A stretch of 64,000 nt of DNA from Gammaproteobacteria bacterium (GCA_018262975.1 JADFDG010000008.1:88986-152985); one strand, 5' to 3'; positions 43,454 through 60,748 are shown, numbered from the stretch's first letter. Notes: a model not told the origin generated them from the letters alone. Numbers and translations: made by a program.

Positions 43454-43500
43454 TGCGACATCGTGTCACATCCCGCCGGGCGGACGGTCGGACCTAGAAT
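43454..43500 (+). promoter_or_regulatory. Candidate RegA-type site and -10 of the copper receptor gene
   Basis: TGCGAC-ATCGT-GTCACA at 43454-43470 is an imperfect palindrome that matches the published RegR box (GNGRCRTTNNGNCGC) except at two positions. A TAGAAT hexamer at 43495-43500 lies 24 bases downstream, 36 bases before the start of the receptor. The same pairing and spacing recurs before the second receptor gene. Confidence 0.5.
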
Positions 43501-43530
43501 CCGCGCGCCAACACCATGCCCGGAGGCCAC

Positions 43531-45618
43531 ATGCAGTCCGTTGCCCGCTCCGCCCTTGCCGTCGCCACGCTCGCCCTGTGCGGCCACGTTGCCGCCGAAA
43601 CCGCAGCCGGCGCCACGGACCCGGCCTCCGGCCAGGCCCCGCAGGCCGACGCCGTCGCCACGCCGGCCACCGACGCGGCAGCCCCGGTCACCCTGGAGCC
43701 GGTGGTGGTGACCGCGCCGGCCATGTCGGCGCCGCTGACCGTGACCACCGACCCGCAGGCCCCGCGCCAGCCGGTGCCCGCCCACGACGGCGCCGACTAC
43801 CTCAAGACCATCCCGGGCTTCTCGGTGATCCGCAAGGGCGGGACCGACGGCGACCCGGTGTTCCGCGGCATGGCCGGCTCGCGCCTGAACATCCTGCTCG
43901 ACGACGAGCAGATCCTCGGCGGCTGCGGCATGCGCATGGATCCGCCCACCGCCTACGTGTTCCCGGAATCCTACGACCGCATCACCGTGCTCAAGGGCCC
44001 GCAGACCGTGCTGTACGGCCCGGGCAATTCCGCCGGCACGGTGCTGTTCGAGCGCGACCACACCCGCCGCACCGAGGCCGGCGTGGAAGGACGGGCCAGC
44101 GTGACCGTGGGCAGTTTCGACCGCGACGACGAGGTACTGGCGGTCAGCGGCGGCAACAGCGACGTGCAGGGCCGCCTGAACGCCACCCGCTCGCACGCCA
44201 ACAATTACAAGGACGGCGACGGCGTGCCGGTGCACTCGCAGTACGAGCGCTGGAGCACGGATGGCGCGCTGGCGTGGACGCCGGACGACGACACCTGGGT
44301 CGAGTTGTCCGGCGGGCAGAGCGACGGCGAGGCTGCCTACCGCGACCGCAGCATGGACGGCACGAAGTTCGCGCGCGACAACATCGGCCTGCGCGCCGGG
44401 CGACGCAATATCTCGTCGCTGGTGAAGAACGTGGAAGTGAACACCTGGCGCAACTACATCGACCACGTGATGGACAACTACACGCTGCGCACCTTCGTGC
44501 CGACGATGATGATGCCCAACCCGGCGGCCAGCAACCCCGACCGCCTGACGCTGGGCAACCGCGTGGCGGTGGAGCTGGCGCCAACCGCATCGCTGCAAGT
44601 CACCGTTGGTGCCGACCAGCAATCCAACCAGCACACGCTGCGCTCGTCGATGAACCAGCCGATGATGCCCTACGAGTCCATGCCGCGCGTCGATGACGCG
44701 AAATTCCGTAACTACGGCGTGTTCGGCGAGGCCACGCAGGCCATCGGCGACGTCGACCGGCTGATCGGCGGCGTACGCGCGGATCGCTGGACCGCCTGGG
44801 ACCAGCGCACCACCACCGTCACTGCCGGCACCTCGCGCAGCGAATCACTGACCAGCGGCTTCCTGCGCCACGAGCACGACATCGGCGGCAGCGACACGCT
44901 GTATGCCGGCATCGGTCGCAGCCTGCGCTTCCCCGACTACTGGGAGCTGATCGGCCAGGGCAAGCAGAGCGAGACCACCAACAGCGCCTTCCTCACCCGG
45001 CCCGAGCAGACCACGCAGGTGGACATGGGCTGGCTGCGCGAGGCCGGCGCGGTGAACCTCAGCGTGTCCGGTTTCATCGCCGACATCGAGGACTTCATCC
45101 TGATCGACACTGTCATCAAGGCACCGGCGACGGTGACGCGCAACGTCGATGCGCAGACCTACGGCGCGGAGGCGGGCGCCGGCTGGGCATTTGCCACGAA
45201 CTGGAAGGCGGACGTGACGCTGGCGTGGGTGCGCGGCCGCAACGACACCGACGGCACCCCGCTGGCGCAGCTGCCGCCGCTGGAAATGCGCACCGGCCTC
45301 ACCTGGGACAACGGCACCTGGTCGGCGGGCGGCCTGCTGCGCGCGGTGGACCGCCAGGATCGCGTGGCGCCGGGCACCGGCAATATCGTCGGCCAGGACA
45401 TCGGCGTGACGCCGGGCTTCGCGGTGTTCTCGCTCAACGGCAGCTGGCGACCGCAAAAGCGGATGCTGGTGGCCGCCGGCATCGACAACCTGTTCGACGT
45501 CGCCTACGCGGAGCACATCAGCCGCAGCGGCACCGCGATGATCAGCGGCTTCGAGCAGACCACCCGCGTGAACGAGCCGGGGCGTAACGCGTGGCTGAAA
45601 GTGTCGCTGGACTTCTGA
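43531..45618 (+). CDS. oprC: TonB-dependent copper receptor (OprC/NosA type)
   Basis: A 695-residue outer-membrane receptor that imports copper using TonB. A signal peptide (ending GHVAA) precedes the TonB box region (EPVVVTAP), the plug (DYLKTIPGFSVIRKGG...) and the beta barrel. The plug carries GGCGMRMDPPTAY with the C-x3-M pair (C132, M136) that binds copper in Pseudomonas OprC, and extracellular Met-rich segments (FVPTMMMPNP, MNQPMMPYESMP). I chose the ATG at 43531 because GGAGG lies 4-8 bases upstream; an ATG at 43516 is less likely. Proximity to the nos genes suggests it feeds copper to NosZ, as NosA does in Pseudomonas stutzeri. Confidence 0.93.
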   Translation: MQSVARSALAVATLALCGHVAAETAAGATDPASGQAPQADAVATPATDAAAPVTLEPVVVTAPAMSAPLTVTTDPQAPRQPVPAHDGADYLKTIPGFSVIRKGGTDGDPVFRGMAGSRLNILLDDEQILGGCGMRMDPPTAYVFPESYDRITVLKGPQTVLYGPGNSAGTVLFERDHTRRTEAGVEGRASVTVGSFDRDDEVLAVSGGNSDVQGRLNATRSHANNYKDGDGVPVHSQYERWSTDGALAWTPDDDTWVELSGGQSDGEAAYRDRSMDGTKFARDNIGLRAGRRNISSLVKNVEVNTWRNYIDHVMDNYTLRTFVPTMMMPNPAASNPDRLTLGNRVAVELAPTASLQVTVGADQQSNQHTLRSSMNQPMMPYESMPRVDDAKFRNYGVFGEATQAIGDVDRLIGGVRADRWTAWDQRTTTVTAGTSRSESLTSGFLRHEHDIGGSDTLYAGIGRSLRFPDYWELIGQGKQSETTNSAFLTRPEQTTQVDMGWLREAGAVNLSVSGFIADIEDFILIDTVIKAPATVTRNVDAQTYGAEAGAGWAFATNWKADVTLAWVRGRNDTDGTPLAQLPPLEMRTGLTWDNGTWSAGGLLRAVDRQDRVAPGTGNIVGQDIGVTPGFAVFSLNGSWRPQKRMLVAAGIDNLFDVAYAEHISRSGTAMISGFEQTTRVNEPGRNAWLKVSLDF

Positions 45619-46195: not shown

Positions 46196-46211
46196 TCCCG
46201 ACCCGCTCCAT

Positions 46212-46275
46212 GTAGAGAGGGGGCCACGCCCCCGATGCTCTTCTTGAGTCATCGGGGGCATGGCCCCCTCTCTGC
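46212..46275. repeat. REPIN-like inverted repeat, copy 7
   Basis: GTAGAGAG-type left arm (46212-46236, CAC loop) and right arm (46251-46275, CAT loop) with a 14-base spacer. The outer foot of the right arm reads GCAG instead of GTAG on the minus strand. It lies between the cytochrome c gene and the RegA-type site of the second receptor operon. Confidence 0.87.
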
Positions 46276-46300
46276 ATAAGGGTTACCACCGAAGTATCGG

Positions 46301-46345
46301 TGCGACGTTATGTCGCAGCCCGCGCTCCGGTGCTCTGCCTAGACT
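46301..46345 (+). promoter_or_regulatory. Candidate RegA site and -10 of the second receptor operon
   Basis: TGCGAC-GTTAT-GTCGCA at 46301-46317 is a perfect palindrome and matches the RegR box GNGRCRTTNNGNCGC at every defined position. TAGACT at 46340-46345, 22 bases downstream, is a likely -10, about 50 bases before the start codon. The layout closely copies the one at 43454-43500. Confidence 0.6.
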
Positions 46346-46394: not shown

Positions 46395-48545
46395 ATGAAG
46401 TCCTCCCGCACACCCCTCCCGCGCGCGCTGACAATGTCATTGCTGGGGCTCGCCATCGGCGCCGCCCACGCCGCCGAAGACGTCACCACCCTCGGCGAGG
46501 TCACCGTCACCGGCACCCGCGAAGCCACGTCCGTGGCCGAGACGCCCGCCACCGTCAACGAGGTGTCCGCCGACACCATCGCCACCAGCCGGCCACAGCA
46601 CCCCAGGGAAGTGCTCAACCAGCTGCCTGGCGTGTGGGTGAGCAACCTCTCCGGCGAAGGGCACTCGACATCGATCCGCCAGCCGCTCACTACCGGCGCG
46701 GTCTACCTGTATCTCGAGGACGGCATTCCCACCCGCTCCACCGGTTTCTTCAACCACAACGCCCTCTACGAGATCAACGTGCCGCAGTCCGGCGGGCTGG
46801 AGGTCATGAAGGGCCCGGGTAGCGCACTGTACGGTTCGGATGCGATCGGCGGCACCATCAACGTGCTGACGCGCACGCCGCCCACCAGCACGGAATTCGA
46901 CGTCACCGCCGAGGGCGGCTCCTGGGGCTGGGGACGCCTGATGGTGAGCGGCGGCGATGCACGCGGCAACGATGCCTGGCGCGCCAGCATCAACGTCACG
47001 CACAGCGATGGCTGGCACGACAGCGCCGGCTACGACCGCCAGGCCGGCACCCTGCGCTGGGACCGCGCCATCGGCGACACCACGCTGGCGAAGACGGTGC
47101 TGTCGTTCTCGCACGTTGACCAGCAGCACGTCGGCAACGTCAACCTCACGGAATTCGAGCGCACGCCGGAGCGCAACAACATCCCGTTTTCCTACCGCGA
47201 GGTCGATGCGCTGCGGGTTTCCACCGCAATCGAAAAGGAAGAGGGCAACACGCTGTGGTCGGTCACGCCCTACCTGCGTGACAACAGCATGGAGATCATC
47301 CCCAGCTGGTCGGTGAGTTACGACCCGACATGGTACGAAACGGGCAACCGCTCGGCGGGCGTGCTGGCCAAGTACCGGCGCGACTTCGCGCCCATGCGCG
47401 CACGCCTGATCGCGGGCGTCGACGTCGACTACAGCCCGGGGTCGCGCGACGAGGACTCCATCAGTCTCATACGCACCACCAATGCCGAGGGTGGCACCAC
47501 CTACGCACTCAACACCGCCGTCGCGCCGGTGCAGATCTTTGACTACGACGTGACCTACACCGGCGTGTCGCCGTACGTGCACGCCGAGTTTTCGCCGCTG
47601 GAACGCCTGCGCGTCACCGCCGGTCTGCGCTACGACGACATGCGCTACGACTACGACAACCGCTTCAACGGCGGCGCGGCCACGGCGACCCAGGGCGTGC
47701 CCGGCACGTTCCCGGCCGGCGGCTGGTACGGCCACGTAGCCAGCACCTCGGTCGACTATTCGCACACCGGCCCGAAACTGGGCGCCACCTGGGCGTTCAG
47801 CGAACGGACCAACGGCTTCATCGCCCTCGCCAACTCCTTCCGCACCCCTTCGGAAGGCCAGGTGTTCCGCGGCAGCCGCGAAAGCACGTCGGTGAAGGCC
47901 CAGGCCGCGGCCGAATCGCTGCTCGACCTCAAGCCGGTGGTGGTGGACAACATTGAGCTGGGCCTGCGTACCCATCCCGGCAAGGCGCGCGTGGATGTCT
48001 CCGTGTACCACATGACCAAGCAGGACGACATTGTCAGCTACACGGACCCGCTGACCACGCAACGCACGGTGGTCAATGCCGGCGAGACCCTGCACCGCGG
48101 CATCGAGCTGGCCGTGCAGGCACCGCTCGCCGACACGCTGTCCGCGCAGCTGGGCTACTCGCATGCGCGCCACAGCTACGAGCAGTGGGTGGTCTCCGGC
48201 ACGGCCGACTACAGCGGCAAGGACATGGAGACTGCGCCGCGCAACATCGCCAACGCGCGACTGGCGTGGACACCGGCGTTCCTCGCCGGCGGTCGCCTGC
48301 AGGTCGAGTACGTTTACCTGGGATCCTACTGGCGCGATGCCGCCAACACCGGCAAGTACGACGGCCATGAACTGGTGAACCTCGCTGCCAACCGTCCCTT
48401 CGGCAAACAGCTGGAAATCTACGCGCGCGTCAGCAACCTGTTCGACCAGCGCTACGCGGAAACCGCCGGCGGTACGGCCGCGGCGCCCACCAACACCGTC
48501 GGCCTGCCGCTGGGCGCCACGCTCGGCGTCACGGCAAGCTGGTGA
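46395..48545 (+). CDS. TonB-dependent outer membrane receptor, first gene of a propeller/Trx/TonB operon
   Basis: A 716-residue receptor with signal peptide (ending AHAA), TonB box region (TLGEVTVTGTRE), plug (RQPLTTGAVYLYLEDGIPT, GLEVMKGPGSALYGSDAIGG) and a 22-strand-type barrel ending in GVTASW with a C-terminal aromatic. The ligand is not readable; the operon and site suggest copper or a copper chelate. GGAGAG precedes the ATG at 46395; the frame is open upstream into the REPIN without signal-peptide character. The next gene starts at the last base of its stop codon (TGATG). Confidence 0.92.
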   Translation: MKSSRTPLPRALTMSLLGLAIGAAHAAEDVTTLGEVTVTGTREATSVAETPATVNEVSADTIATSRPQHPREVLNQLPGVWVSNLSGEGHSTSIRQPLTTGAVYLYLEDGIPTRSTGFFNHNALYEINVPQSGGLEVMKGPGSALYGSDAIGGTINVLTRTPPTSTEFDVTAEGGSWGWGRLMVSGGDARGNDAWRASINVTHSDGWHDSAGYDRQAGTLRWDRAIGDTTLAKTVLSFSHVDQQHVGNVNLTEFERTPERNNIPFSYREVDALRVSTAIEKEEGNTLWSVTPYLRDNSMEIIPSWSVSYDPTWYETGNRSAGVLAKYRRDFAPMRARLIAGVDVDYSPGSRDEDSISLIRTTNAEGGTTYALNTAVAPVQIFDYDVTYTGVSPYVHAEFSPLERLRVTAGLRYDDMRYDYDNRFNGGAATATQGVPGTFPAGGWYGHVASTSVDYSHTGPKLGATWAFSERTNGFIALANSFRTPSEGQVFRGSRESTSVKAQAAAESLLDLKPVVVDNIELGLRTHPGKARVDVSVYHMTKQDDIVSYTDPLTTQRTVVNAGETLHRGIELAVQAPLADTLSAQLGYSHARHSYEQWVVSGTADYSGKDMETAPRNIANARLAWTPAFLAGGRLQVEYVYLGSYWRDAANTGKYDGHELVNLAANRPFGKQLEIYARVSNLFDQRYAETAGGTAAAPTNTVGLPLGATLGVTASW

Positions 48546-49741
48546 TGACCATGCGCGCGCACTGGCTCGCACTGTTCGCCGCCATCGCCCTGCCGGGCGT
48601 GGCAGCGGCCGCCGATGGCATGGCGCCCAGCGCCGCGGCGATGCCGCACGCGCACGCCAGTTCGCTGGCAGTTTCCGTGACGGCCGACGCTGAAGGTGGG
48701 TTGTGGCTGGCACGCGTGCAGGACGGCCAGGTGCGAGTCAGCCGTTCCGTCGATGGCGGCCGCCACTTCGGCGACGAGACCGTGGTGAATGCGGTCGCCG
48801 AGAATGTGCGGGCCGAGGGCCAGAACCGTCCGCAACTGGCCGTGCACGGCGAGCGCGTTGCCGTTGCGTGGTCACAGGCACTGGCCAAGCGCTTCAGCGG
48901 ACACGTGCGCTTCGCGCGATCGATCGATGGAGGCCGCAGCTTCCTGCCGCCGGTGACCATCAACGACGACCTGCAGGAGATCGGCCACGGCTTTACCGCC
49001 ATGGCCATGCACGACGACGGTCGCCTGGCGATTGCCTGGCTGGACTCCCGCGACAGCACGGCCGCCAGGTCTGCGGGCAAGGAGTGGACGGGCAGCAGTC
49101 TCTACTACGTGCAGTCCGCTGACGGTGGCGCGACGTTTTCGCCCAACACGCGGCTGGCGGCGCACACCTGCCAGTGCTGCCGCATCGCCATCGACTTCGC
49201 GCCCGACGGCGTGGCCGTGGCGCTTTGGCGGCACGTGTTCGGCACCGACACCCGCGACTTCGCGATGGCACGCCTGGCACCCGGTAGCCGCATCGTGCGC
49301 GCCAGCGAGGACGGCTGGCACATCGATGGCTGCCCGCACCACGGCGGCGCGCTGCATGTCGATGCACGCGGACGCCGTCACCTTGCCTGGTTCACCGGTG
49401 GCGGCGAGCAGCCCGGCCTTTACTACCGGCGCGCCGACGGCAAGCGCATGACGCGCCCGATGGCCTTCGGCGACGGCGGCGCGCAGGCGGGCCACCCGGC
49501 GGTATTTTCGCGCGGCGACGACGTCTGGCTGGCCTGGCGCGAATACGCGGACAACACCTTCCGCCTGCAGGTGATGGAATCGCGCGATGGCGGCAGGAAA
49601 TGGTCCACGCCGAGCACGCTGGCAAGCGCGACCGGCAACACCGACCTGCCGCTGTTCGTGACCGGCACGGGGGAGCCGCTGCTCTACTGGAATACCCCGG
49701 CCAGCGGCCTGCAACTGTTCAGGCTGGAGGCGCGGCCATGA
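48545..49741 (+). CDS. Exported sialidase-fold beta-propeller protein with Cys/His motifs
   Basis: A 398-residue exported protein (signal peptide to about residue 22). Four Asp-box repeats are visible (SRSVDGGRHF, ARSIDGGRSF, VQSADGGATF, MESRDGGRKW), so it is a six-bladed propeller of the BNR/sialidase fold. The sialidase Arg triad is not evident. Instead it has HTCQCC around residue 200 and DGCPHHGG about 55 residues later, which look like a metal site. It lies between a TonB receptor and a thioredoxin-like gene with overlapping start/stop codons. I infer a periplasmic metal-binding or receptor-partner role. The start could also be the ATG at 48551. Confidence 0.85.
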   Translation: MTMRAHWLALFAAIALPGVAAAADGMAPSAAAMPHAHASSLAVSVTADAEGGLWLARVQDGQVRVSRSVDGGRHFGDETVVNAVAENVRAEGQNRPQLAVHGERVAVAWSQALAKRFSGHVRFARSIDGGRSFLPPVTINDDLQEIGHGFTAMAMHDDGRLAIAWLDSRDSTAARSAGKEWTGSSLYYVQSADGGATFSPNTRLAAHTCQCCRIAIDFAPDGVAVALWRHVFGTDTRDFAMARLAPGSRIVRASEDGWHIDGCPHHGGALHVDARGRRHLAWFTGGGEQPGLYYRRADGKRMTRPMAFGDGGAQAGHPAVFSRGDDVWLAWREYADNTFRLQVMESRDGGRKWSTPSTLASATGNTDLPLFVTGTGEPLLYWNTPASGLQLFRLEARP

Positions 49742-50244
49742 ACACGCGCGCGGCAACGCGGTGGCTGCTGGCCAGCCTGCTGCTGGCCGGCACCACGGCA
49801 CTGGCTTCGCCGCCACCAGCCCCTGCAGCACAGGTGCAACCGATGACGCGTGGCAGCCTGGCGAAGATCGTGGCGGCCCGGCCCGGCAAGGCGTTCATCG
49901 TGGCCTACTGGTCGGTGGGCTGCGCGCATTGTCCGAAGGAATTGCGCACGCTCGGCGAACTGAAGCGTCGCCACCCGCAACTGGATGTCGTGCTGGTCTC
50001 CACCGACACGCCCGCGGAGGCGCAGGAAGCGGCGCAACTGGCCGCGGGGTTCGGCCTCGGCCAAGCAGAGCAATGGGTCTTCGCCGCCGATGCACCGGAA
50101 ATGCTGCGCGCGGAAATCGATCTGCGCTGGCATGGCGAACTGCCGCGCACGGCGTTCTATGACCGCCAGCATCGCGTCCAGGCGGTGTCGGGCGTGGTGC
50201 CCGCACAGCGCCTGCAGGCATGGATCGAGGCCAACGTCCCATGA
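49738..50244 (+). CDS. Exported thioredoxin-like (TlpA-type) protein
   Basis: A 168-residue periplasmic protein with an N-terminal signal sequence (WLLASLLLAGTTALA) and a thioredoxin fold. The active site WSVGCAHCPKE (CXXC) lies near residue 60, and the cis-Pro strand is LPRTAFYD. Such proteins reduce disulfides or deliver copper in the periplasm. It overlaps the propeller gene before it and tonB after it by ATGA, so the four genes form one translationally coupled unit. A role in keeping the CQCC/CPHH motifs of the propeller reduced is inference. Confidence 0.88.
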   Translation: MNTRAATRWLLASLLLAGTTALASPPPAPAAQVQPMTRGSLAKIVAARPGKAFIVAYWSVGCAHCPKELRTLGELKRRHPQLDVVLVSTDTPAEAQEAAQLAAGFGLGQAEQWVFAADAPEMLRAEIDLRWHGELPRTAFYDRQHRVQAVSGVVPAQRLQAWIEANVP

Positions 50245-50936
50245 CTGCGCAGGCCTCGATAACCGCATCGCCGGATTGCGGCCTGGGGGCGGCGGCGCGG
50301 CCACCGCTGCGGACGCATTTCGGCCGGATCCTCGCCGTGGCGCTGGTCGCGCACGCGGCGTTGCTGGCCATCGAGGTTTCACCCTGGGAGACGCCGGGCG
50401 CCATGCAACGCATGGCGGTGAAACTGATCTCTGCCGGGGCTGCGCCGGCCACCACCGCGCCTGCGCCGGCAGAACCTGCGGCACGCCCGGAACCACGACC
50501 GCGCGCCGAACCGGTGGCAGTGCCACCGCCGTCAGTACCGGCCGCGACGAGCGCGCCGGTGCAGGCAACCGACGCCTTGCCCGATACCGGCATCGTGGCC
50601 GGCAGCGCGCCAGCCGAACCGGCCGCCGCGCCGGCCAGCGAGCCACTGACCGAGGCCCGCGTCGATACCGCCTACCTGGACAATCCGCGCCCGGGCTACC
50701 CGCCGATGTCACGCCGCCTGGGCGAAGAGGGCACCGTGCTGCTGCGCGTCACCGTGAACGCGCAGGGCCAGGCCACGTTCGTCGCCGTGGAGAAAAGTTG
50801 CGGACACGAGCGCCTCGATGCCGCCGCGCGCGCCGCCGTGCGCCAGTGGCGCTTCATTGCCGCGCGGCGCGGCGACACGACGGTCGCATCGACCGTGCTG
50901 GTGCCAGTCACGTTCGCACTGGCCGGCGGCCGCTGA
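50241..50936 (+). CDS. tonB: TonB energy-transducing protein (dedicated copy)
   Basis: A 231-residue TonB. One N-terminal membrane helix (FGRILAVALVAHAALLAIEV with the His typical of TonB helices), a Pro/Ala-rich periplasmic spacer (about 60-150) and a C-terminal domain starting at YLDNPRPGYPPMSRRLGEEG, with LLRVTVNAQGQ, LDAAARAAVRQWRF. No exbB or exbD is in the window. As last gene of the receptor-propeller-Trx operon it is probably a dedicated TonB for the nearby receptors. It converges with the nosL-like gene, 28 bases apart. Confidence 0.92.
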   Translation: MTAQASITASPDCGLGAAARPPLRTHFGRILAVALVAHAALLAIEVSPWETPGAMQRMAVKLISAGAAPATTAPAPAEPAARPEPRPRAEPVAVPPPSVPAATSAPVQATDALPDTGIVAGSAPAEPAAAPASEPLTEARVDTAYLDNPRPGYPPMSRRLGEEGTVLLRVTVNAQGQATFVAVEKSCGHERLDAAARAAVRQWRFIAARRGDTTVASTVLVPVTFALAGGR

Positions 50937-50964: not shown

Positions 50965-51555
50965 TCAGTGGTGATGGTGTCCCGCTGCCGGCGCGGCCAC
51001 CACCGCGGCAGCAGCCTCGCTGAACGACAGTACGCGTCCACCGTTGTTCGCCACGAAGGCATCGGCACTTTCCCTGCGCGCGAACGCCGGCAGCGCATCA
51101 ACGCGCATCGGCCCCGTCACCTTCGAGCCTTGCACGTACCAGGCTGCGCCGGCCTGCACCCAGCCATTGCCGGGGTAGTCGGTAACCCAGGCCACCATCA
51201 CGTCGCCCGCGGCCACCGGTGCCCTGCCGCGTGACACGCGGTCCACGAACACGAAGAACTCCCGCGGCGAATCGAAGAAGCGCACGCTGCCATCGCGCAG
51301 TGCCAGCTGTGCCGCCCATTTCGGGAAGCGCGCCGGGTACATGCCGCACACCGGACAGCGTGCATCCGCCGGCACCGCACGGGCAGCAAACCGCGCTGCC
51401 TCCGTTGCTCCACCTTCCAGTACCACGGGGGCGGCAAGCGCCTGCACCACGGCCACGGGCGCGTCCTGCTGCGCACAGTGCACGAGGCCAGCCACCAGGC
51501 TGCCCACCGAAAACAGCATCCCGGCCAGCAGGTAATGACGTGCGGCAACGGCCAT
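50965..51555 (-). CDS. Second NosL-like protein with CPVCGM motif and His-rich tail
   Basis: A 196-residue protein with an N-terminal membrane or signal segment (YLLAGMLFSVGSLVAGLVH) and a NosL-type domain: DARCPVCGMYPARFPKWAAQL carries the C-X2-CGM copper motif, then SVRFFDSPREFFVFV and the ANNGGRVLSFSEA end. The C-terminus is GHHHH. NosL proteins hold Cu(I) and pass it to NosZ maturation. It is the last gene of the minus-strand nos operon, 3 bases after the unknown protein. Its motif differs from the canonical nosL gene at 52.2 kb, so the two may divide copper delivery tasks. Confidence 0.82.
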   Translation of the reverse strand: MAVAARHYLLAGMLFSVGSLVAGLVHCAQQDAPVAVVQALAAPVVLEGGATEAARFAARAVPADARCPVCGMYPARFPKWAAQLALRDGSVRFFDSPREFFVFVDRVSRGRAPVAAGDVMVAWVTDYPGNGWVQAGAAWYVQGSKVTGPMRVDALPAFARRESADAFVANNGGRVLSFSEAAAAVVAAPAAGHHHH

Positions 51556-51558
51556 GGG

Positions 51559-52203
51559 TCAGTCCTCCAGCGCGAAGCGCGGATTGGCGAGCAAGGCGTC
51601 CAGCAGCGCGCGCAGGTTCGCGGCCGGATCCGCGCCGGGCCGCGTCAGCGGATCAGCATGGACGGCGCCATCGGCGCGGTGCAGGTGATTGGGAACGGTC
51701 GCGAGGTGCGGATGCACGGGCGCGGTATCGATGCCCGCCTCTCGCGGCGCGCCGCCGGCCCCGACGGCACGCCAGCGCAGCGAGTACGCGTCCGCTGCCG
51801 CGACGTGCACCTCCACCGTCACCCCGGATTTCAGAGTGAACGACAGTGCGTCCTGCGACACCTGCGATGGACCGGCGAGCGCGCCGACATATTCGCCCTC
51901 CACCATCGCCTGCAGCACGAGGTGCCAGGGCTGTGCCTCGCCGTCGTCGCGCCCCTTGGCCGCGATCATGCGGCGCACCGACTCGCGCGTTTCGTGCAGC
52001 ACGCGCAACGCCAGCACGTGCTCCCAGGTCGGGTGCTCGGCGCAGTCGCCCGCGGCAATGCGACCTGCGAGGGCGGCGTCGCTGTCCACGCCGTAATGGC
52101 GCAGCACCGCCTTGTGCGCCTCACGCAGCTCCAGCGAGAGCCGCGCCAGGGACTCGAGGCGCTGGGCGGCCTCCCACTCGACGTTGTCGAAGAAATCAGC
52201 CAC
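51559..52203 (-). CDS. Unrecognised protein between two NosL genes
   Basis: I do not recognise this 214-residue protein with confidence. There is no signal peptide or membrane segment. Residues 1-105 look helical (EWEAAQRLESLARLSLELR; TWEHVLALRVLHETRESVRRM); residues 120-190 look beta-rich and contain IDTAPVHPHLATVPNHLH and RADGAVHADPLTRPG, with five His spread over 25 residues, a pattern vaguely like DUF6516/TumE-type domains. It starts with GTG at 52203, with GGAGG six bases upstream overlapping the nosL stop. Its place inside the nos operon suggests a role in NosZ biogenesis or control. Confidence 0.8.
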   Translation of the reverse strand: MADFFDNVEWEAAQRLESLARLSLELREAHKAVLRHYGVDSDAALAGRIAAGDCAEHPTWEHVLALRVLHETRESVRRMIAAKGRDDGEAQPWHLVLQAMVEGEYVGALAGPSQVSQDALSFTLKSGVTVEVHVAAADAYSLRWRAVGAGGAPREAGIDTAPVHPHLATVPNHLHRADGAVHADPLTRPGADPAANLRALLDALLANPRFALED

Positions 52204-58705: not shown

Positions 58706-60664
58706 TCAACCTTCCACGATCATGCGCGAACGCATCTCGAGGTGCAGCGCATGGCAGAAGTGCGTGCAGTAGCACCAGTACACGCCCGGCTTGTCGGCCT
58801 TGAAGGTGACCGACGCCGTTTCCTGCGGGTTGACGATGAAGTTGATGTTGTACTTCGGAATCGCGAAGCCGTGCGTCAGGTCCTCGATGTTGTCGAGGTT
58901 GGTGAGGACCAGCGTGACCTCGTCGCCCTTCTTCACCGTGAACTCGCGCAGGCTGAATGCCGGCGCCTGCGACGTGATCTTCACCGTGACCTTGTTCCCG
59001 TTGCGGAACACGCCGGACTCCTTCGGGTCCTTGATCGCGTTCGGGAAGTCATCCAGGTTGTAGATCTGCTTCGTCTTGATGATGTCGCGCTTGAAGATGA
59101 TGAAGTCGTGCGGTTCCGGGCGCACCGGGTGATCCGCGACCAGCACCATCTTCTCGCCGGAAATGTCGATCAGCTGCTCGGTCTCGGCGTGCAGCGGACC
59201 CACCGGCAGGAAGCGGTCCTTGGAGAACTTGCAGCCAACACACAGCCACTTGCCGTCGGCAGCGCGCGTCTCGGACTGCGAGGCGTTGATGTGGCCCGGC
59301 TGGTAGGTGACGTCCAGGCGGTCAACAACGTACTTGGCGTTCTTGTCACCGGCGTGGAACTTGATGGCGGCTTCGATGTTCCACTTGACCACCTGGCTGT
59401 CGAGGAACAGCGTGGTATAGGCGTTGCCGCGGCCGTCGAATGCGGTGTGCAACGGCCCCAGCCCGATCTCGACCTCGGCCACGATGGCCTTGTCCGCGTT
59501 GTCGAGCTTGCCGTCGAACCAGTCGAGCACCTTCTGCAGCTCGATCACGGTCGCGGTCGGGTTCAGCTTGCCGGCGCAGATGAAGTACTTCGCGTCCGGC
59601 GAGGCGTTCACGCCGTGCGGGTTCTTCGGCACCGACACGTAGGCAACCAGCGCGGTCTTCGGATCGGCGTTGGCGGCACGGGTGGCGTCGACCACCGGCA
59701 CCTTCGAATCGCCGTAGGTCTTCGTCTTGCCGGCCTTCACCGCTTCCTCGATGCGGGCGATGTTGAAGAACAGGCAGGCATCGCGCTCTGCGGACATCAT
59801 GTCCTCGTAGTGCGCGCCCATCTCGGTGTTGTACTGGTTGGTGGCAGCCAGCTTGCCGTCGAACGACGTGGCGACCAGGTCGCAGTTGCCGTCGATCAGC
59901 GCCTGCCAGCGCACTTCCATGGTCTCGGCGTCGACGCAGGAGAACAGCGACCGGTACTTGGTCGCGTCGGCCGCGTCCTTGCCGTTGTTCGGCAGCGGGA
60001 TGCTGAACTCGGAGCCGCAGAATACGCGGGTGGTGTAGTTGATGGCCGGATCGACCGGGTCGGCCTTGTCCGGGAAGATGCCGTGGAAGCCCTGGACGTT
60101 GGGCAGCTCGGTGATCTTGTCGCAGGTGAAGGTATCGAGGCGCACACGGGCGATGCGGCTGTTGATCTTGTCGTTGATCCAGGCATAGCGGCCGTCGTAG
60201 TTGCCGTCCTTGTAGGAGGCATGGGTGTGGTGGGTATCGGCCACCGTGTACTTCAGGCTGCCGTCGGGCCTGGTGCCCATGATCTTCCTGGATTCGTTGG
60301 TGATGCCCCAGCCCACCAGGGCGTCCGGGGTGAACACCGGTACGCGGTGGATCTCGCGGCCGGAGGGCAGGCCGAGGATGCGCATGTCGCCGGTATGGCC
60401 GCCGCTCCAGATGCCGTAGTAGGTGTCCAGCTCACCGGGCTTGAGGTGCGGCGAGCCCGCACCACCGTGCGCCGGGGCGGCAGCATGGCCGTCGCCCGCC
60501 GGGGCAGCAGCACCACCTTCTTCCTTGCGGCAACCGGCCAGACCCATCGACAGGCCCGCGCCCACCAGGCCGGCCACGCCGGCCGCACCGAGGAAACTGC
60601 GACGGCCGGCGTTGGGGACGCTGTCGGCGGTCATTTCCGGATTCTTGCTCTGCCCTTCGCTCAT
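58706..60664 (-). CDS. nosZ: Nitrous-oxide reductase NosZ (Tat type)
   Basis: NosZ reduces N2O to N2 in the periplasm. The 652-residue precursor has a twin-arginine leader (GRRSFLGAAG) typical of clade I. The propeller carries CuZ ligands in DTHHTH; the C-terminal cupredoxin has CuA ligands in LTHGFAI and CYCTHFCHALHLEMR (C-x3-C-x3-H-x2-M). The Trp usually seen between the CuA cysteines is His here. The Tat leader ends in LAGC, a lipobox (Cys45), followed by a 30-residue Ala/Gly/His-rich linker, so the enzyme may be membrane-anchored. AAGGAG precedes the ATG. It is divergent from regBA. Confidence 0.96.
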   Translation of the reverse strand: MSEGQSKNPEMTADSVPNAGRRSFLGAAGVAGLVGAGLSMGLAGCRKEEGGAAAPAGDGHAAAPAHGGAGSPHLKPGELDTYYGIWSGGHTGDMRILGLPSGREIHRVPVFTPDALVGWGITNESRKIMGTRPDGSLKYTVADTHHTHASYKDGNYDGRYAWINDKINSRIARVRLDTFTCDKITELPNVQGFHGIFPDKADPVDPAINYTTRVFCGSEFSIPLPNNGKDAADATKYRSLFSCVDAETMEVRWQALIDGNCDLVATSFDGKLAATNQYNTEMGAHYEDMMSAERDACLFFNIARIEEAVKAGKTKTYGDSKVPVVDATRAANADPKTALVAYVSVPKNPHGVNASPDAKYFICAGKLNPTATVIELQKVLDWFDGKLDNADKAIVAEVEIGLGPLHTAFDGRGNAYTTLFLDSQVVKWNIEAAIKFHAGDKNAKYVVDRLDVTYQPGHINASQSETRAADGKWLCVGCKFSKDRFLPVGPLHAETEQLIDISGEKMVLVADHPVRPEPHDFIIFKRDIIKTKQIYNLDDFPNAIKDPKESGVFRNGNKVTVKITSQAPAFSLREFTVKKGDEVTLVLTNLDNIEDLTHGFAIPKYNINFIVNPQETASVTFKADKPGVYWCYCTHFCHALHLEMRSRMIVEG

Positions 60665-60731: not shown

Positions 60732-60748
60732 TGCGACATTTCGCCGCA
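60732..60748. promoter_or_regulatory. Candidate RegA/RegR box between nosZ and regB
   Basis: TGCGACATTTCGCCGCA matches the Bradyrhizobium RegR box GNGRCRTTNNGNCGC at every defined base and is nearly palindromic (TGCGAC-N5-GCCGCA). It is 68 bases before the nosZ start and about 100 bases before the regB start, so it could serve either promoter. Confidence 0.6.

Follow-up and report, generated by a model that had tools for sequence, protein, structure and literature searches.

We found that a four-gene operon in a gammaproteobacterial genome shares a palindromic operator with a NosA/OprC-type copper receptor gene and with nosZ, the gene for a copper nitrous-oxide reductase. Judged from its sequence and that of its relatives, the operon is likely to serve copper acquisition, under joint control with the cell's other copper genes. 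It lies in a 64,000-nucleotide stretch of DNA (Gammaproteobacteria bacterium, GCA_018262975.1 JADFDG010000008.1:88986-152985; hereafter the window). A preliminary description of this DNA had proposed uptake of copper or a metal chelate rather than sugar processing, and this proposal is supported by an operator common to the operon, the NosA/OprC-type receptor gene, and nosZ, as well as by the copper proteins that the same operator precedes in other genomes. The four genes overlap at each junction by 1-4 bases, as had been described:

46395-48545, plus strand: TonB-dependent receptor (TBDR) with an FNHN-type plug (PF00593, PF07715)
48545-49741, plus strand: exported Asp-box beta-propeller with Cys/His loops (family matches, AF2 model, fold matches)
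49738-50244, plus strand: exported thioredoxin-like protein with a CAHC active site and a GELPR cis-Pro loop (alignment, ResA match)
50241-50936, plus strand: TonB (TIGR01352, PF03544)

A 17-bp palindrome, TGCGACA-N3-TGTCGCA, lies 78 bp upstream of the operon. The window holds three copies with at most two mismatches, compared with ~0.7 expected. These copies and the two other genes that they precede are:

43454-43470, no strand: operator copy 1 (TGCGACATCGTGTCACA, 1 mismatch), 46 bp before the NosA/OprC-type receptor gene
46301-46317, no strand: operator copy 2 (TGCGACGTTATGTCGCA, 1 mismatch), 78 bp before the operon
60732-60748, no strand: operator copy 3 (2 mismatches), 68 bp before the nosZ start
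43516-45618, plus strand: TonB-dependent copper receptor of NosA/OprC type, plug motif CGMRM (TIGR01778, 701.7 bits, cut-off 472.45)
58706-60664, minus strand: NosZ, copper nitrous-oxide reductase (TIGR04244, 999.6 bits)

First, an operator with no more than 2 mismatches of 14 preceded 57 of 96 homologous operons, compared with 0.05 expected from mononucleotide shuffles. The spacing was specific, as 57 operons had the site with a 3-bp spacer and only 0-3 had it with any other spacer from 0 to 10 bp; the operator was 49-fold denser upstream of the operons than elsewhere in these loci. Second, the 3.3-Mb genome that contains the window has only two copies with one mismatch or none, and these precede the NosA/OprC-type receptor gene and the operon. 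Sites with two mismatches are common by chance in this genome (28 places, 44 in the control), and support for the nosZ copy therefore comes from its position and from its recurrence before nosZ elsewhere. Indeed, 5 of 52 nosZ upstream regions carried the operator (0.26 expected), with 3 of 10 in propeller-carrying genomes and 2 of 42 in other genomes. Third, many of the named operator targets at other loci are copper proteins, so that, as in a copper-responsive regulon, a shared operator stands before copper genes. Targets with the operator upstream included:

L217, a Methylophilaceae genome: nosZ-nosR
L223: NosL and SCO1
L157: SCO1 with an FtsX-type ABC system
L214: a multicopper oxidase/NirK-like operon
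L065: Csp1 (TIGR04401, 152 bits)
L038, L047, L054, L078, L216, and L158: TBDRs with the plug motif C(P/A/G)NHMNPPLSY, whose CxNHM resembles the CxxxM of OprC
L148, L155, and L222: TonB-ExbB-ExbD

Finally, the presence of the propeller tracks nosZ and ammonia or methane monooxygenase (AMO/PMO) genes but not narG, which served as a non-copper control. In a sample of 369 genomes of the class, 21 with the close propeller family, nosZ was present in 10/21 propeller genomes and 52/348 others (p 0.0007), AMO/PMO in 4/21 and 7/348 (p 0.002), and either one in 13/21 and 58/348 (p 1e-5, or 3e-5 without the window's genome), with p-values that ignore kinship; narG was found in 2/21 and 61/348. The window's genome has an AMO/PMO-family gene (contig C25, 28315-29019, 8.5e-79) besides nosZ.

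The propeller and its thioredoxin-like neighbor carry the following motifs, all of which had been noticed in the preliminary description:

49163-49180, plus strand: HTCQCC, propeller residues 207-212 (C209, C211, C212), in the loop from blade 3 to blade 4
49325-49348, plus strand: DGCPHHGG, propeller residues 261-268 (C263, H265, H266), in the loop from blade 4 to blade 5
49921-49932, plus strand: CAHC, thioredoxin residues 62-65

The propeller gene starts at ATG 48545 or, alternatively, at GTG 48542, and its product contains four Asp boxes (S68-D70-G72, S126-D128-G130, S191-D193-G195, and S346-D348-G350), which had likewise been recognized. It matched only the general BNR_2/BNR profiles and none of the NCBIfam models. 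C209, C211, C212, C263, and H265 were invariant in 18/18 homologues collected by whole-protein search, which form the unbiased set for conservation. H266 was present in 70/80 propeller sequences. Full conservation of Cys and His in the 80 sequences partly reflects selection, because 79 loci had been fetched with CxCC or CPH patterns; H148, D167, R169, R229, R237, and D238 were also fixed in this partly biased set.

An AF2 model of the propeller (pLDDT 90, pTM 0.87) has the Asp-box propeller fold of GH33 sialidases, probably with seven blades. Its structural neighbors were PLL lectins, CylK, and GH145 enzymes, which are seven-bladed, and also sialidases; the top VIA-align structural matches were mostly not sialidases. 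Strand order in the model places H148 where the blade 2/3 loop ends and suggests that this loop and the 3/4 and 4/5 loops lie on one face near the axis, and C209-C212, C263-H266, and H148 therefore probably form one pocket. The CQCC and CPHH motifs, for which the question of whether they meet in space had been raised, would thus sit on neighboring blades and on the same face. A weaker propeller group with CDCC...GCPVNGP (L018-L026, L124-L127) keeps the four cysteines and has lost the histidines, and nosZ was found in 0/9 of its genomes in the class sample. A second propeller gene is present in some genomes (L037, L097, L113, L029, L030), either in tandem with the first or at a distance of a few kb.

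The thioredoxin probably serves this propeller specifically, because the two form a single protein in four genomes (L072, L116, L117, L119); a model of one fusion contains both a propeller and a thioredoxin fold (pLDDT 90, pTM 0.80). Nearly all members of the thioredoxin family keep CxxC, and the alignment also shows a conserved GELPR. Profile matches to AhpC-TSA and TlpA were weak, and the nearest solved structure by profile was ResA (4nmu, E 1.7e-10). Like ResA and TlpA, the protein has CxxC, a cis-Pro loop, and an export signal (the signal peptide was judged by eye). In the receptor, scores for the plug (PF07715, 57.2 bits) and the barrel (PF00593, 136.8 bits) indicate that both domains are present, and the C-terminal domain of the fourth gene product exceeded the cut-offs for TonB (TIGR01352, 71.8 bits, cut-off 27.1; PF03544, 66.4, cut-off 24.6), in agreement with its original assignment.

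Relatives of the propeller are widespread. Among 244 genomes of the order searched with the whole protein, 17 had close relatives and 9 had the weaker group, and a scan of GTDB species genomes found at least 580 relatives, from which 79 loci were kept. Hosts of these loci include Nitrosomonas, Nitrosospira, Nitrotoga, Thiobacillus, Sulfuricella, Gallionella, Methylobacter, Methylophilaceae, Denitromonas, and Azonexus, among others; the viral contigs searched contained no relative. Across ~100 loci, the thioredoxin gene usually lies 3' of the propeller gene, often overlapping it, and the TBDR gene lies before or after; Nitrosospira loci have no thioredoxin gene. The propeller and thioredoxin remain constant while the receptor type differs by lineage (FNHN in about a third, PRW in ~40%, and others). 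Genes for TonB, ExbB, and ExbD are found repeatedly, in about a third of these loci, and no other genes recur. The preliminary description had suggested looking for the four-gene order beside nosZ in other genomes. The operon adjoins nosZ in the window's genome only, and we rejected adjacency as a general rule; elsewhere, the link with nosZ consists of co-occurrence and a shared control site.

We propose that the TBDR would carry a copper chelate or copper ion across the outer membrane, with energy supplied through the TonB encoded in the operon. Once in the periplasm, the copper would be bound by the propeller in its one-face pocket, with C209, C211, C212, C263, H148, and H265/H266 as the putative site, and the thioredoxin would keep the propeller cysteines reduced and may aid reduction of Cu(II) to Cu(I) or copper release. 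Copper might then be passed to NosL and NosZ, the latter being both a proposed copper user and a proposed member of the regulon; in other species, the recipients might be SCO1, Csp1, or AMO/PMO. These details of the propeller-thioredoxin mechanism are tentative, and we regard them as less probable than not. The operon is most likely switched on by copper scarcity rather than for detoxification, because it contains TonB-linked import genes and because OprC is repressed by high copper (PMC7558416).

Several observations weigh against copper acquisition. The operon TBDR has no OprC-like CxxxM copper site, with GFFNHN in the equivalent plug loop. Within the few families that have mixed membership, the nosZ signal was absent and propeller-negative members carried nosZ too, and the co-occurrence is therefore a lineage-level association. 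In addition, the operator precedes genes other than those for copper proteins, among them FecI-FecR-TBDR operons and a PepSY protein in Nitrosomonas:

L149-L154 and L221: FecI-FecR-TBDR operons and PepSY proteins, operator upstream
L218: KatG, operator upstream

With these targets, iron stays in play. The main alternative is that the operon takes up iron, as a xenosiderophore or haem, and is controlled by a regulator of Fur type; copper genes would then have joined the regulon because control by iron and copper is shared. Such FecI-FecR-TBDR operons and PepSY genes are typical of iron uptake, the best NCBIfam score of the operon TBDR (below threshold) was to a siderophore family, and the operator, with its TGCGA arms and 7-3-7 layout, resembles sites of the Fur family. 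However, FecIR-type regulators also serve copper-methanobactin loci; both of the best operators in the window's genome precede the copper receptor gene and the operon; and NosZ, NosL, SCO1, Csp1, and the multicopper oxidase are copper proteins. Moreover, the single Nitrosomonas europaea Fur box that PMC3050691 reports, TAATAATACGTATCTTTAT, bears no relation to the operator, and we rejected this known box as a match. On balance, we judge iron uptake to be unlikely. Zur was also rejected as the regulator, as its published Paracoccus motif, GTAATGTAATAACAT (PMC5387054), differs from the operator. In a search for a self-regulating regulator, only FecI sigma factors were seen behind operator copies. 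Riboswitch control was discarded as well: Rfam models matched nothing in the window and, in six homologous loci, only a tmRNA.

A second alternative, which we consider improbable, is a redox-repair module: the propeller-thioredoxin pair would maintain exported copper proteins, or the chaperones of these, in the reduced state, and the TBDR gene would be a separate member of the regulon. TlpA/ResA-type thioredoxins do reduce copper-site cysteines in oxidase assembly, and the fusions, together with a propeller-thioredoxin pair that is constant while the receptor varies or lies downstream, would suit such a module; against it, the TBDR gene overlaps the propeller gene in many lineages, and TonB, often with ExbBD, is within the operon. 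Least probable is a glycan- or glycoconjugate-binding system with a lectin- or sialidase-related propeller feeding a sugar-type TBDR, which we rejected on gene context and co-regulation: the lectin, GH145, and sialidase fold neighbors, the Asp boxes, and the BNR_2 match favor it, but sequence matches to solved sialidases were weak, the Cys/His set is invariant, the partner is a thioredoxin, the regulon includes copper genes, and no glycan-degradation genes recurred in the ~100 homologous loci, in keeping with the earlier view that sugar is not processed.

Several known systems resemble parts of the operon. NosA/OprC receptors (TIGR01778) share with the operon a TonB-dependent outer-membrane step, a copper link, and a place beside nosZ under common control. 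The operon receptor, by contrast, belongs to another TBDR lineage (33.5 bits to TIGR01778, well below the cut-off of 472.45) and is accompanied by propeller, thioredoxin, and TonB. Methanobactin uptake likewise pairs a copper-chelate TBDR (MbnT) with a periplasmic partner (PMC7558416), but that partner, MbnE, is an oligopeptide-type binding protein rather than a Cys/His propeller with a thioredoxin, and no methanobactin biosynthesis genes recurred at homologous loci. The thioredoxin differs from ResA/TlpA in forming a distinct WSxxCxxC / DxxWxGELPR family that is tied or fused to the propeller, and the propeller differs from GH33, PLL, and GH145 proteins, with which it shares its fold and Asp boxes, in its invariant CxCC...CPH set and lack of sugar context. 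The proposed Cys/His cluster may occupy a position comparable to that of CuZ in the propeller of NosZ.

Around the operon, the NosA/OprC-type receptor gene lies 2.8 kb upstream, outside the four genes and within the same proposed regulon, and a small cytochrome c gene is also upstream. A strong inverted repeat at 46205-46277 (AGAGAGGGGGCC...GGCCCCCTCTCT), just before the operator, is probably the terminator of the cytochrome gene. Downstream and convergent is a nos cluster of NosL, an unknown gene, a second NosL-like gene, NosY, NosF, NosD, NosR, and NosZ, in which NosY, NosF, NosD, and NosR were named by eye from translations:

50965-51555, minus strand: NosL-family copper chaperone gene, convergent with the operon (PF05573, 79.1 bits)
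51559-52203: gene between the two NosL-family genes, no Pfam match

Other operator-led loci add further candidates. One operon (L146 6723-10449, L157 5201-9646, L223 10170-14243, L226) encodes SCO1 (not in all), a small membrane protein, an FtsX-type ABC permease and ATPase, a CCG membrane protein, and a TlpA-like protein, and is possibly another copper-handling ABC system. In Nitrosomonas (L153 1730-6312), an operator separates a second propeller gene from divergently oriented DUF2325 and CbiX-like (chelatase) genes. At L151 4195-5058, an operator leads an exported protein with no Pfam match whose mature end may begin with His (AHTRFETGT...), which hints at a copper protein of the histidine-brace kind.

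Published reviews name few importers of copper in bacteria and describe the control of OprC as unclear (PMC9470648), and our literature searches returned nothing relevant on the operator motif or on this protein with copper; the operon and operator were not described in the papers found. The operon probably represents a new form of TonB-linked copper uptake, in which both the periplasmic partner and the operator are new. With about even confidence, we suggest more broadly an undescribed copper-limitation regulon defined by the 7-3-7 operator. At its core would stand a new class of periplasmic copper-handling propeller with a Cys/His cluster at its mouth; a thioredoxin of its own and exchangeable TonB receptors would serve it, and the copper would go to NosZ, AMO/PMO, and oxidases. 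A widespread family now labelled BNR/sialidase-like thereby gains a testable function, and the operator motif provides a handle for finding the copper-scarcity regulator and its regulon. Because NosZ requires copper and is the main biological sink for N2O, the gathering of scarce copper by denitrifiers, ammonia oxidisers, and methane oxidisers bears on N2O emission.

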